Positions 2,054-46,990 of a stretch of 64,000 nt of DNA are shown here, piece after piece (position 1 is the first letter of the stretch; each line of letters begins with the position of its first letter). The DNA is from Dyadobacter jejuensis (GTDB taxonomy: Bacteria; Bacteroidota; Bacteroidia; Cytophagales; Spirosomataceae), in assembly GCF_003149085.1 (NCBI RefSeq), contig NZ_QGDT01000001.1:744001-808000 (forward strand). The letters are read 5' to 3'. The notes under the pieces are model-generated. The model was not told the DNA's origin. It made no database searches and saw nothing but the letters and a program-made list of their open reading frames with translations. A program made the position numbers and the translations under genes.

Positions 2054-5000
2054 TCACCTTCCGACCAAAAAAAGAAGTGTAATTACAGTGCCTTTGTCCC
2101 GTGTAGATTGGATCGTGAGTTGTCCCTTCATCTGCATTGCACGATGCCGCATGTTTATTAGGCCATTTCCTTGTCGGTCCAACTGCTTGTCGAAACCTTT
2201 ACCGTTGTCCCTAATAACCATTTTTACTTTACCCATTGAGTAGCCAATATCCGTGTAAATGGCACTACATTCAGCATATTTGGCGGCGTTATTTATGGCC
2301 TCTTTAAATATCAAATAAAAGTTTTTGCGGGTTTGCATGTCCAGTTTCAGGTTATTTAGCGGTGTATCTGTGTTGAAATGAAAATCATAACCTTTGGATT
2401 CTGCCAGTTCGCCTCCAAAGTGTAACATGCGGGCAAATACATCGCTGATTTGGTCTTTTCCTGCTTTTACACTCCAGACTATATCGCTTAACCCTTCCTG
2501 TACTTGCTGTGCATTTTCCTTTATTTTCTGTACAACTTGCTGATGCTCTGTTTCCACTATTTGCATTAGTAATGCCTGGCTATAAAACGAGATGCTGCTG
2601 AGAGTACCTCCAATTTCATCATGCATATCGGCACTGATCCCGTTTCGTATCTGCTGAATTTTAAGGATCTGGCGTAAACGGTATTGGTAAAACGCATAGA
2701 ATATTGCACCGAGGGAAATTATACTCAGGATAAAAAACCAGACAGACTTATACCACGGTGCCAGCACAATGAGTGGAGTCTGCCATTGGTAGGTACCCCA
2801 GTCGGCACCAGCGGCAGAGACTTGGACCTTTAGGTTGTACTCGCCAGGTGGCAAACTGTTAAAAAGCAGTTTATTTCCGTCCTCAAACATATGCCATCTG
2901 TCGTCGTTCCATCCTTCCAGTTTATAACGGAACCGATTGAGAGCTGTATTATGGTAATTAGTACTCATGAAAGAGAATGTGAAAAGACGGTCATCGGGCT
3001 CCAAAATAATCTTATTACCTTGCTTATGACTGGTTACGGTGTCGGTATGGTTACGGCCGGAGGCATATTTCGAGTAAGATATCAACTGTAACTCGCCCTC
3101 TTTTTCCGCACTTGTGTCGAGCCGTGCTGGATCGAAAGCCACAATGCCATTCAGCCCACCAAAATAGAGCGTTCCATCTTGTGATTTAAGATATGAACCG
3201 TGGTTGAACTCCATATGGGGCAGGCCGTCAAAAATGGCATAGTTATGAAACTTCTTCGAGTGTGTATTGAATCGAGACAGTCCTTTATTGGTGCTTAGCC
3301 AAAGGTTTTCCTGCTCGTCAGGCAGGGCAGCGTAAATATTGTTATCAGGAAGGCCATCTTCCGTTGTAAAAAGGCGTATCTCTTGATTTAGGGTATCAAT
3401 ACGAATTAGTCCCTTTCCAGATCCCGCCCATAATGCATGCTCGTACCAAAGCGTGTGGAATATTTGTAAAGCAGGAAGTTTGATCTTGTCGCCGGCAGTT
3501 TGTCCGTAATGTTCATGAATGGTGGCATCCGGGTTTAATACATATAAACCATTGGTCGTGCTGACCAAAATACGGTTTCCTGACCAGGGCATGAAGTGGT
3601 TTACCCGCTCGTTTTTAATATACTTGCCTGCTTTCTCATTCAGTAGCACAGGTTTTAGGTCCCGTGTGTCTAGCACAGCCATTCCGCCCCATGTACCCAT
3701 CCAAAAGGTATATTCATTGAGTTTATAAAAGGAGGTAAACCCCCGGCCGCTGACAAAAGGGAGCTCTACCGAATAATATTGCTCCCTTTCAGGATCTATT
3801 TTGATAAATTGGGTACCATCCGTCACTGCATATACTTGGTTGCCGGCAAATAGCACTTTATAAGGTATTACGGTATCACCCGGCACGTTCTTTGGACGTT
3901 TTAAAATCATGTGCCTGGTTCTACCTGTCGCCGGGTCTATTTGGTGGAGTAAATTCGGTTTTCCGTCAACCATGAATCCATAAGAGCAAACCCATATTTT
4001 TCCCGTAGGATCTTGTGTAATACCCCGAATGCTGCTACCAATATCCCCCGGTTTTTCCAGGGGTACACTCAGGTATTTCCGGAATACTTCGTCAGTCAAC
4101 GTTATTTTGAAAAGTCCGTCCACACAGGATATCCAGAAACTACCGTCAGTGCTCACCAAGGATGCAAATAGGAAGATGCGTGCCCCTGATTTCTGTTGCA
4201 GCCGAGTGGTCAGGTCCGTGAAATGGTTTGTTTTTTGATTTACAAATCCGATTTCCTCGGCCGATTTAAGCCATAGGTTTCCTTTTTTATCAGGTGAAAT
4301 TATTTTGGGCGCTATCGGCGTATCGATGTCTGTTAGTGGTCCGAACGTACCTGTCCCGAAGAAATATTTACGCATCAAATATTCCTTACTGTCTCCTTGT
4401 CGGTAGTATATGTGCAGCCCATCTATATCTTGCTGGACAACACTTGAAACATGGAAGTGCTTGTTAACAAGTTCTTTATTCAACAAACTGATCCTGCGGA
4501 TAAAATTTGCTTTCGAATCGATTTCATCCAGAAAAACATCTTCACTAAATAAATACGCATTATTTCGAAGATCATTAAAAAAGAAGACGACCAAGCTTTC
4601 AGCTGAAAATGAATGGGAAGAAGTTGCGGGTGGAGTGTACACCGCCACGGACCTATAATCCATATTAATCCTGATCAGTTTTCCATACGGAATTGCCATC
4701 CATGCATTCTTGTTTTTATCAAAGAAAATATTCAAGGTTTGTTTGGAATCCACGCCCTTTATATTGCGAGAAGGATCGACTGTCCTACAGGTAAGATAGA
4801 CGGGGTCGAGAATGCTGAAACCATTATTATGCGCCACCCATATATTGCCGTCAGGTGCTGTCCGGAGCTGATTTATCAGAGTACGGCTGCCTATCGACCG
4901 GGTCAGTGTTTCTGTAAAGTTTTGAAAGTTGTATCCGTCGTAGCGCCATAGATCCTGTCCGGTAGCTACCCACATAAAGCCACGTCTGTCTTGTGCAAGG

Positions 5001-5578: not shown

Positions 5579-6211
5579 TCAAACCAGCCTCTCTCTGATT
5601 GCCAGACTGATGGCTTCCGTAGCACTGTTTACGTAAAGCTTATCGTAGATATTTCTTATATGATTGTTTACCGTGTTGTAGGAAATGTTACACTCGGCGG
5701 CGATTAATTTGTAACTATAACCCTTGGTTAAGTAGGCAAGAATTTCCTTTTCGCGGACGGTAAGATGGTAATCTTTTTTTGATTGTACTTCATTGGCGAA
5801 GTACCGCAGTACCTGGGTGGCGATGCTGCCCGTCATAGGCGCTCCGCCTTCTAAAGCCTCTTTTAAGCTTTCCAAAAATTTTTCCGGGGCTGTTTTTTTT
5901 AACAGATATCCGTTGGCTCCAGCACGAAGGCTGTCGAATATCCGATCGTCTTCCTCAAAGTTAGTTTGCATCAGGACAGGGAGCTCCTCAAAATTGCTTC
6001 GTATCATTTTGGTTGCTTCAATACCGTTTATCCCTGGCATATCGATATCCATAAGAACAAGGTCCGGTTTGGAACCTGCAATATCTGCTACCAGATTATT
6101 GGCATTGATAAAGGTACCCGTGCAGGTAAACTCAGGTGACAGATTCAGGAGCATGGCCACACTGTTAAGCCTTTCTTGATTATCGTCGAAAATAATGATT
6201 CTTGATGTCAT
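5579..6211 (-). CDS. LuxR/NarL-family response regulator
   Basis: 210 residues. The receiver domain (1-120) has the acidic pair D9-D10, phospho-acceptor D55 in LVLMDIDMPG, T84 and a lysine in YLLKK. The C-terminal LuxR-type helix-turn-helix spans about 145-205 (LTVREKEILAYLTKGYSYKL, then YNTVNNHIRNIYDKL). It lies upstream, in transcription order, of the propeller kinase and is its likely partner. The large GEVED protein gene starts further upstream on the same strand and is a plausible target or co-inherited neighbour; that link is inference. Confidence 0.93.
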   Translation of the reverse strand: MTSRIIIFDDNQERLNSVAMLLNLSPEFTCTGTFINANNLVADIAGSKPDLVLMDIDMPGINGIEATKMIRSNFEELPVLMQTNFEEDDRIFDSLRAGANGYLLKKTAPEKFLESLKEALEGGAPMTGSIATQVLRYFANEVQSKKDYHLTVREKEILAYLTKGYSYKLIAAECNISYNTVNNHIRNIYDKLYVNSATEAISLAIRERLV

Positions 6212-6351
6212 GGTGTAAAATTAACAAATAAGAATGTTGAAGCACTTAGCAAATATTTGCCAACATCACCAGACAGTGAACGGCTTGTCTCGTTGAAATA
6301 GCTTACTTTTTTAAAAGGTTGTCCAATTTTAGTGAAGTAGTTGTAATGCTA

Positions 6352-45134: not shown

Positions 45135-45167
45135 CGTTTAAGAACAAATCGGAAGCGTCTAAGCAAT

Positions 45168-46036
45168 GTCATGCAGTGCTCGGCGAAGCACAGTACAAAC
45201 CATGTCATGCAGCGCCTGTCGAAGCATAGTCCATACAATGTAATGTTAAGCCCTTCGACAGGGCCCTGTCAAGCTCTGCATGATCAGGGTGACAATCTTG
45301 AACTTCATAGCATTGCCAAAACAATGTCATGCAGAGCCTGTCGAAGCACAGTCCATACGATGCAATGTCAAGCAATGTTCAGCCCTTCGACAGGGCCCTG
45401 TCAAGCTCTGCATGATCAGGGTGACAATCATGAGTTTTGAAGCACAGTCAAAACGATGTCATGCAGAGCCTGTCGAAGCATAGTCCATACAATGCAATGT
45501 CAAGCAAAGTTAAGCCCTTCGACGGGCCCTGTCAAGCTCTGCATGATCAGGGTGACAATCTTGAACTTCATAGCATTGCCAAAACGATGTCATGCAGAGC
45601 CTGTCGAAGCATAGTCCATACGATGTAATGTCAAGCAATGTTCAGCCCTTCGACGGGCCCTGTCAAGCTCTGCATGATCAGGGTGACAATCATGAGTTTT
45701 GAAGCACAGTCAAAATGATGCAATGTCATGCAGAGCCTGTCGAAGCATAGTCCATACGATGTACTGTCAAGCAATGTTCAGCCCTTCGACGGGGCTTTGT
45801 CAAGCTCTGCATGATCAGGGTGACAATCTTGAACTTCATAGCATTGCCAAAACGATGTCATGCAGAGCCTGTCGAAGCATAATCCATACAATGTATTGTT
45901 CAACCCTTCGACGGGCCCTGTCAAGCTCTGCATGATCAGGGTGATAATCTTGAACTTCATAGCATTGCCAAAACGATGTCATGCAGAGCCTGTCGAAGCA
46001 TAATCCATACGATTCAATGTTAAGCCCTTCGACGGG
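45168..46036. repeat. Palindromic repeat array, left block (about 7 units)
   Basis: Each unit has a left arm with ATGCAGAGCCTGTCGAAG and a right arm with CTTCGAC, then GGGCCCTGTCAA, then GCTCTGCATGATCAGGGTGA. The right arm is the reverse complement of the left, interrupted by a 10-bp insertion, so one unit can fold into a hairpin of about 18 bp with a 30-45 nt loop. Left arms begin near 45168 (degenerate), 45203, 45326, 45458, 45589, 45725, 45857 and 45978; right arms near 45251, 45383, 45515, 45646, 45782, 45904 and 46025. The spacing is 121-136 bp. The last right arm is cut off after GACGGG at 46036, where a different sequence begins. Spacers alternate between two types (CTTGAACTTCATAGC and CATGAGTTTTGAAGC). 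Confidence 0.93.
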
Positions 46037-46117
46037 TATGATAAAATCACATACCAGCTCATCGAACGCTACCACTACCCAATAAACAAATCATTATCAG
46101 ACAAATACACTAAGTAA
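46037..46117 (+). pseudogene. Orphan 3' gene fragment at the array breakpoint
   Basis: Immediately after the truncated right arm, an open frame reads 26 codons, starting YDKITYQLIERYHYPINK and ending at TAA 46115-46117. It looks like the natural C-terminal tail of a protein, but there is no start and the upstream part is repeat DNA. It could be a leftover of the gene into which the repeats moved, or chance. I do not recognise the family. Confidence 0.3.
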
Positions 46118-46223
46118 AAAGAAATATGGATGGTCAAATCGCAAGCAAGTTTCATTTCTAATTTTAATGTGACTTACAATAAAAAATGCGTAATTTCATA
46201 TTCCACGACACCGTTCATATATC

Positions 46224-46514
46224 ATGAAAAAGTATTATGTATATATCGTTAAATGCCATGATAGTAGTTATTATATTGGAGTTACTAACGATGTAGAAAG
46301 GAGAATGGATGAGCACAATGCGGGTAAGATTAAGACTGCATATACCTACTTTCGCAGGCCTGTAGTTTTGGTATTTGTTCAAGAATTCGCTGATATTACT
46401 CAAGCAATCGTTTTTGAAAAACAATTGAAAGGTTGGAGTAGAAAAAAGAAGGAAGCTATCATCTCTGATCAGTGGCACTTGCTCCCCGCACTATCTAAAA
46501 ATAGAAATAAGTAG
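46224..46514 (+). CDS. Small GIY-YIG nuclease-domain protein inside the repeat array
   Basis: 96 residues: essentially one GIY-YIG domain with YYVYIVKCHDSSYYIGVTND (the GIY-YIG strand pair appears as YVYI and YIGV), the catalytic Arg in VERRMDEHNAG, and the metal-binding Glu in QAIVFEKQLKGWSRKKKEA. This is the stand-alone URI/YhbQ-like type common in Bacteroidota, not UvrC. It sits in a unique segment of about 510 bp (46037-46546) framed on both sides by palindromic repeats. A role in spreading or processing the repeats, as proposed for REP-associated transposases in proteobacteria, is an inference from position only. Confidence 0.9.
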   Translation: MKKYYVYIVKCHDSSYYIGVTNDVERRMDEHNAGKIKTAYTYFRRPVVLVFVQEFADITQAIVFEKQLKGWSRKKKEAIISDQWHLLPALSKNRNK

Positions 46515-46546
46515 TAATGTTTTGAGTTAAACAACGTCTATGCAAT

Positions 46547-46990
46547 GTCATGCAGAGCCTGTCGAAGCATAATCCATACAATGCAATGTTAAGCCCTTCG
46601 ACGGGGCCCTGTCAAGCTCTGCATGATCAGGGTGACAGATGTGAATTTTTGAAACAACGTCTACGAAATGTCATGCAGAGCCTGTCGAAGCATAGTCAAA
46701 ACGATGCAATGTCATGCAGAGCCTGTCGAAGCATAATCCATACAATGCAATGTTAAGCCCTTCGACGGGGCCCTGTCAAGCTTTGCATGATCAGGGTGAC
46801 AATCTTGAACTTCATAGCATTGCCAAAACGATGTCATGCAGAGCCTGTCGAAGCATAGTCCATACGATGTAATGTCAAGCAATGTTCAGCCCTTCGACGG
46901 GCCCTGTCAAGCTCTGCATGATCAGGGTGACAATCTTGAAATTTGAAGCACAGTCAAAACGATGCAATGTTAAGCCCTTCGAGGGGCTTA
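46547..46990. repeat. Palindromic repeat array, right block (about 4 units)
   Basis: Same repeat family as the left block. Left arms begin near 46547, 46670, 46711 and 46833; right arms near 46594, 46758 and 46890, with a degenerate one near 46975. The arm at 46670 has no partner and is followed by another left arm 41 bp on, a sign of deletion or recombination. The block ends about 70 bp before the stop codon of the minus-strand AraC gene. Confidence 0.9.

Follow-up and report, generated by a model that had tools for sequence, protein, structure and literature searches.

A small stand-alone GIY-YIG nuclease gene and its bracketing palindromic repeats in Dyadobacter jejuensis and related bacteria

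The stretch of DNA analysed here, called the window throughout, comprises 64,000 nucleotides of the Dyadobacter jejuensis genome (5.76 Mb), positions 744001-808000 of contig C1. The repeat array around a GIY-YIG gene that the original prediction described is real: between 45168 and 46990 we find 12 elements on the plus strand and 11 core sites on the minus strand, 8 of them complete. The features are the following.

45161..46041, no strand: left half of the array, with 8 plus elements and minus sites at 45251, 45383, 45515, 45646, 45782, 45906 (tag mutated) and 46027 (truncated)
45168..45190, plus strand: plus element, diverged
45204..45226, plus strand: plus element, one change
45251..45294, minus strand: minus element, long loop, TGTC tag outward
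45326..45348, plus strand: plus element
45383..45426, minus strand: minus element
45458..45480, plus strand: plus element
45515..45557, minus strand: minus element
45589..45611, plus strand: plus element
45646..45688, minus strand: minus element
45725..45747, plus strand: plus element
45782..45825, minus strand: minus element
45857..45879, plus strand: plus element
45978..46000, plus strand: plus element
46042..46536, no strand: stretch free of repeats that holds the nuclease gene, boundaries set by eye
46224..46514, plus strand: stand-alone GIY-YIG nuclease gene, 96 aa, intact (Pfam PF01541, E=5e-20)
46537..46990, no strand: right half of the array, with 4 plus elements and minus sites at 46594, 46758, 46890 and 46977 (truncated)
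46547..46569, plus strand: plus element
46594..46637, minus strand: minus element
46670..46692, plus strand: plus element
46711..46733, plus strand: plus element
46758..46801, minus strand: minus element
46833..46855, plus strand: plus element
46890..46932, minus strand: minus element

The common form of the plus element is GTCATGCAGAGCCTGTCGAAGCA, from which two of the 12 copies have diverged. The complete minus element reads, on the minus strand and with small changes, TGTCACCCTGATCATGCAGAGCTTGACAGGGCCC(C)GTCGAAGGG, and the outward end of all 8 complete copies is TGTCA; the sites at 45906, 46027 and 46977 were classed as incomplete by reading. Plus and minus elements mostly alternate, with a typical spacing of 121-136 bp. 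A search with the 18-base arm, allowing at most 3 mismatches, gives 12 matches in the window, all of them inside the array, while shuffled windows give a mean of 0.08 matches and a maximum of 1. The gene-bearing middle of the array is free of repeats, as originally stated, its length being about 495 bp by eye (approximately 46042-46536) rather than 510 bp. The plus elements of the window carry CAGAG in place of the CTGAG found in relatives, so that one stem pair is broken, and no canonical CTGAG element occurs within the array: the window array is a diverged variant of the relatives' repeat. Its tandem arrangement could be the product of ordinary unequal recombination.

The gene in the middle is the intact 96-residue GIY-YIG gene that had been predicted. 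In a Pfam search the protein matches only GIY-YIG and T5orf172, with no Y1 match, and in NCBIfam it has only a weak match to TIGR01453 (E=0.16), far below the cut-off of that model. Residues Y7, Y17, G19, R27, H31 and E65, which we take to be the catalytic residues of the GIY-YIG family, are invariant in a 35-row alignment. The closest solved structures by sequence are BH0048 (1zg2, E=3e-13) and EF2693 (1ywl, E=2e-12), both UPF0213 proteins deposited as hypothetical.

Compared across relatives, the element consists of a GTC tag and a short covarying stem around a GAG…CGA core. For the form with a five-base loop the consensus is tGTCAnnCTGAGCtTGTCGAAGnnt (172 distinct elements from 53 loci), with the tag tGTCA. 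At the two variable stem positions adjoining CT/AG, 98% and 94% of these 172 elements have complementary bases, against 27% and 35% in shuffles, and the 51 elements with a six-base loop give 90% and 92%, against 35% and 33%. Because the single-strand folding energy is no better than that of shuffles (z approximately 0.2 for three elements, -0.4 for a fourth and -1.6 for an 86-nt composite stretch), we use covariation as the evidence for the stem. The GAG…CGA core could form a G-C pair and tandem G.A mismatches. The claim that each repeat can fold into a hairpin holds only weakly: it gains from the covariation among relatives, but not from the folding energies or from the window's own, partly broken stem. 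Two markers for the repeat were discarded: the literal GAGCCTGTCGAAG was too narrow (15/59 relatives), so CTGAGCN{2,4}GTCGAAG was used as its replacement, and a perfect five-base stem was too strict (58/79 and 4/62), four bases being adopted instead.

The prediction that such repeats are enriched beside GIY-YIG genes can be examined in the nearest relatives of the protein, for which we took the best 80 of 219 matches in one-genome-per-species data, giving 79 distinct loci picked on protein similarity alone. An element of the form CTGAG…CGAAG (scored as CTGAG-N(2-30)-CGAAG, at most 300 bp from the matched stretch) lies beside 78/79 of these genes, compared with 53/490 control ORFs taken from the same loci more than 1 kb away; the loci, like the sampled genomes, are non-independent draws, and the motif was fixed after viewing elements at these 79 loci and is therefore partly post hoc. 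The sole locus without it within 300 bp is L148. An inverted pair of repeats surrounds the gene in 58/79 cases and only 2/490 control ORFs. Element density at the 79 loci is 7.1 per kb within 250 bp of the gene and 0.04-0.27 per kb beyond 750 bp. Upstream of the nuclease gene plus-strand elements tend to prevail, and downstream of it minus-strand elements, so that the tags point outward.

In many loci elements sit approximately 20-100 bp from the ends of the nuclease gene, as would also be expected if they regulated it, as autoregulatory sites or RNA hairpins, and had been spread by other means. We consider this very improbable: many genomes carry tens of copies of these elements at other positions, and in one genome (G047) they form doublets away from the gene. 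Here 18/18 close neighbour pairs are tag-outward and 60-72 bp apart (67 listed of 104 sites), G047 being the one genome scored for inverted doublets.

A second set, of 62 stand-alone PF01541 matches picked from 58 related genomes of the same order and from that of the window, separates the types of GIY-YIG gene. The CTGAG…CGAAG element is found at 17/17 window-type genes of the genus, one broken copy included (two of the 17 are loci already in the 79-locus set, and G024 and L077 are the same locus, in a genus group that includes Dyadobacter luteus RS19). Remnants and more distant genes have it in 2/21 cases, counting the truncated remnants of G002 and G003, and it is found at 0/9 tRNA-type genes, 0/15 other GIY-YIG genes, 0/37 genus control ORFs and 0/20 UvrC genes.

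A more general structural motif, with any 4-bp stem around GAG…CGA and the stem bases left free, was written after seeing the phylum loci without CTGAG…CGAAG among the first 29 core loci, where the phylum genomes were divided into core and weaker by our own choice, core meaning a best match above about 85 bits. It lies near the nuclease in 73/79 nearest, 17/17 genus window-type and 28/29 phylum core loci, near 65/467 control ORFs, and near 0/9 tRNA-type, 0/15 other GIY-YIG and 0/20 UvrC genes. With the motif fixed beforehand, fresh core loci give 15/21 against 8/91 for controls and fresh weaker relatives 11/20 against 1/72; a second fresh weaker set, scored without control ORFs, gives 12/42. 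The motif is missed at 6/21 core and 9/20 weaker fresh loci, several of which, by reading, hold an element still recognisable as a variant, its loop being longer or its tag altered. The earlier CTGAG…CGAAG motif is found at 15/29 of the first phylum core loci and 13/21 of the next. Independently of any motif, a strong inverted match of any sequence brackets 12/42 weaker-relative genes, compared with 1/84 control positions.

These counts also bear on chance, under which the repeats would gather between genes generally and turn up beside small genes of every kind. Elements are indeed present at 11-14% of the control ORFs from the same loci, but the nuclease genes have them in 73 to 78 of 79, and chance is refuted by the UvrC, other GIY-YIG, tRNA-type and genus ORF controls; we give it practically no weight. 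The pairing of nuclease and repeat is real, widespread and specific to one GIY-YIG subfamily.

The type of repeat can be compared with the phylogeny of the nuclease, using a protein tree of 122 rows (20 of 142 having been dropped beforehand) that is limited by its small number of columns and its many weak forks. For this purpose a looser motif, C[TA]GAG, was adopted, so that the window is labelled as well. When each row is given one of four labels by its flanking repeat (five-base loop, six-base loop, other or none), the tree requires 19 changes, whereas shuffled labels require 60.6 on average and are as low as 19 in 0/200 cases; such shuffles ask for clustering alone, and since near relatives cluster anyway, plain relatedness stays in. 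The distinction between five-base and six-base loops requires 4 changes over 77 rows, an unshuffled count. Twenty of the 25 six-base rows group in a single clade of the nuclease (22 rows; its support of 89 is not starred), whose hosts are Dyadobacter, Algoriphagus, Zobellia, Ulvibacterium and one Aquimarina (L110), whereas in a second Aquimarina (L126) the nuclease belongs to a different clade and the repeats have a five-base loop. Loop type follows the nuclease clade, across host families too, with relatedness not fully controlled.

Repeat numbers across whole genomes were counted with the pattern CTGAGCN{2,4}GTCGAAG, the window's own genome being in both the genus and the phylum samples; reversed-pattern controls give 0 to 2 per strand. 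Genomes without the gene had been expected to hold fewer repeats, and this is what the medians give. Among 37 genomes of the genus, the 16 with an intact gene have 5 to 106 repeats (median 37) and the 19 without it have 0 to 38 (median 0, 11 at zero), a difference with p=7e-6, uncorrected for shared ancestry; the two genomes with gene remnants have 9 and 65. Among 198 genomes of the phylum, the median is 6.5 for the 36 with a strong match, 1 for the 50 with a weaker match and 0 for the 112 without one (strong match versus none, p=9e-9, again uncorrected for shared ancestry). The correspondence has exceptions on both sides: 4/19 gene-less genus genomes have 11 to 38 repeats, 7/112 gene-less phylum genomes have at least 10, and 13/36 phylum genomes with the core gene have fewer than 4 copies of the counted pattern. 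One genome of the phylum sample, G060, has 215 copies of the pattern and no nuclease match at E<=1e-15; loss of the gene, its divergence, or another enzyme are candidate readings.

In the window's genome GAGCCTGTCGAAG is present in 30 copies, 10 in the array and 20 elsewhere, 15 of the latter in three clusters at C12:132-134 kb (10), C1:424 kb (3) and C11:62 kb (2), near which no GIY-YIG match was found. Locus L037 (G000:C12:128000-138000) holds two large CTTCGACAGGCTCAGGGTGACA arrays, at approximately 4310-4790 and 5960-6320, with no GIY-YIG match; by eye they sit between genes resembling nucleotide-sugar enzymes.

Because Y1 transposase matches occur in 32/36 genomes searched, one could imagine that RAYT (Y1) transposases mobilise the repeats and that the GIY-YIG gene is a bystander. 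However, among the best of the matches listed, the structural motif lies within 600 bp of the Y1 domain at 0/30 loci and the strict motif anywhere in the Y1 locus at 0/30, and we find this reading hardly credible.

On the evidence of the genus, the nuclease gene itself may move only rarely. It is single-copy in 14/16 genus genomes that have it, occupies at least 4 syntenic groups plus single sites, and is mostly inherited in place. By eye, a decayed gene tail without repeats remains in G014 at a site used by others, and G006 and G012 have no gene at that site, the insertion boundary not being sharp. In-place inheritance, the G014 relic and the gene-less sites in G006 and G012 fit slow gain and loss rather than frequent jumping. 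The window's genome has a broken (frameshifted) window-type paralogue at C1:874 kb (L040, G000:C1:868000-880000, near 6020-6272), flanked by six-base-loop repeats GAGCGGAGTCGAAG unlike those of the window. It also has a GIY-YIG copy with an internal TAG on C20, where repeats are not evident, and a different, tRNA-linked GIY-YIG gene on C16.

Such a history can be set against a homing-like selfish gene, which would cut the repeats as double strands and be copied into repeat clusters by repair. The gene does lie inside repeat clusters and at several locations within one genus, and the protein has a weak match (E=6e-4) to the phage homing-endonuclease family phrog_5123. But although each genome offers it tens of targets, the gene is single-copy in 14 of the 16 genus genomes that have it and largely inherited in place, and the empty-site comparison in the genus yielded neither a precise empty site nor a target duplication. 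We therefore regard homing of this kind as improbable.

The tRNA-linked gene on C16 belongs to a second GIY-YIG type, of approximately 80 aa, which has a tRNA-Pro(GGG) gene in 6/7 loci scanned (L041, at G000:C16:50000-62000, and L182, L185, L187, L189 and L193); in the seventh, L188, the locus begins where a contig ends. Upstream of the gene in L041, tRNA fragments with a TCCCGCC…GGCGGGA hairpin form a long array, and L189 (G015:C2:198847-205677) has, at 201847-202677, three tandem tRNA-type genes approximately 316 bp apart, followed by tRNA-Pro. Here too a nuclease may be paired with repeats, in this case with a tRNA gene as the target.

For the window-type gene, the sequence comparisons suggest that the enzyme acts on the matching hairpin-like repeats, the two forming an enzyme-substrate pair, and the best explanation, which we consider probable, is that the palindromic repeats on either side have the small GIY-YIG protein as their dedicated nuclease. 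The enzyme would bind the repeat as a folded single strand, in lagging-strand, transcribed or incoming DNA, and cut at or near the GTC tag; repair or strand transfer after the cut would then let the repeats spread and amplify, and the same process would sometimes move the nuclease's own gene. The window's tandem array would have arisen when a diverged variant was amplified locally. Spreading or expansion of the repeats by the nuclease is inferred here, and the original interpretation as a whole is partly supported.

REP sequences are common bacterial repeats, and the pairing described here resembles REP/RAYT systems in several respects: the repeats are tagged short palindromes in tens of copies and in inverted pairs, the enzyme gene is flanked by its own repeat type, and repeat type tracks enzyme clade. 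It differs in that the enzyme is a GIY-YIG nuclease rather than an HUH Y1 transposase, in that the tag is GTC (tGTC) rather than GTAG, and in that the Y1 genes scored here and in related genomes are not beside these repeats. The proposed likeness to REP/RAYT, with GIY-YIG in place of Y1, accordingly agrees with the enrichment within 300 bp, the lower repeat numbers of genomes without the gene, the clade-tracking repeat type and the Y1 loci without the motif, and the system may play the part of REP/RAYT with another nuclease fold.

In the accessible part of PMC3733652, RAYTs are the enzymes tied to the spread of REPs, and the CGTC/TGTC-tagged REPs were, in 2013, left without an enzyme; those with a CGTC tag are described there as having a stem of 8-9 bp starting with AT and a loop of 4-5 bases, the CGTC-1 elements of Neisseria being dRS3. 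Compared with that description, our elements share the TGTC/CGTC tag and the tag-outward dimers, but in the main element the stem measures 4-5 bp, the core is GAG…CGA and the loop is longer. Scored with C, T or A before GTC, CGTC-form elements (8-9 bp stem) are found at 0/79 nearest loci and flank 2/50 phylum core loci, both in one genome (G123). Exact CGTC-form elements flank 10/62 weaker GIY-YIG relatives (3/20 + 7/42, in 7 genomes), compared with 0/163 control ORFs, which come only from the loci of the first weaker and core fresh sets (p=1e-6). They bracket the gene in L344, L371 and L383, with TGTCATTCCCGCGAAGGCGGGAATCCA in L371 and L383. Full-text searches of a limited collection listed no paper whose title and opening lines link GIY-YIG with REP, RAYT, REPIN or dRS3; in the accessible part of PMC9465073, the single paper with both GIY-YIG and the REP term, they appear only as separate genes.

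We propose tentatively, at somewhat less than even chances, that GIY-YIG nucleases building and maintaining populations of GTC-tagged palindromes are a second, independently invented class of REP makers, present in Bacteroidota and also outside it, and that they are the enzyme so far missing for the superfamily of CGTC/TGTC-tagged REPs. For these the clade-matched GIY-YIG partner is a concrete candidate. If the proposal is true, two unrelated nuclease folds have each given rise to a REP-like way of life, and the target of a nuclease could be read from the type of repeat next to it.

The same data can be read differently: the repeats may be fixed targets of a single-strand nuclease governing DNA uptake or recombination, without being spread by it. 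The Ssn GIY-YIG family reportedly cuts single-stranded repeats (NTS) in Neisseria. Such a reading would share the same pairing, a small GIY-YIG protein with repeats adjoining it and genome-wide, and it gains from the CGTC-type elements around some weaker relatives (L371, L383); in what is accessible of PMC3733652 the Neisseria CGTC-1 elements are dRS3. On the other hand, local bracketing, tandem arrays and doublets suggest multiplication of the repeats; we consider fixed targets unlikely, and a dedicated nuclease that also spreads its repeats remains our preferred explanation. What the two systems would have in common is a small stand-alone GIY-YIG protein partnered with genomic repeats, and the Ssn-type feature of a stand-alone GIY-YIG protein with its conserved residues is present here. 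The pairing here differs in its occurrence in Bacteroidota and a few other phyla, its inverted bracketing, its clade-matched loop types and its tandem arrays. If Ssn acts as reported, the present pairing would belong with it in one broad class, set apart by the architecture of its repeats and by a clear match between enzyme and repeat.
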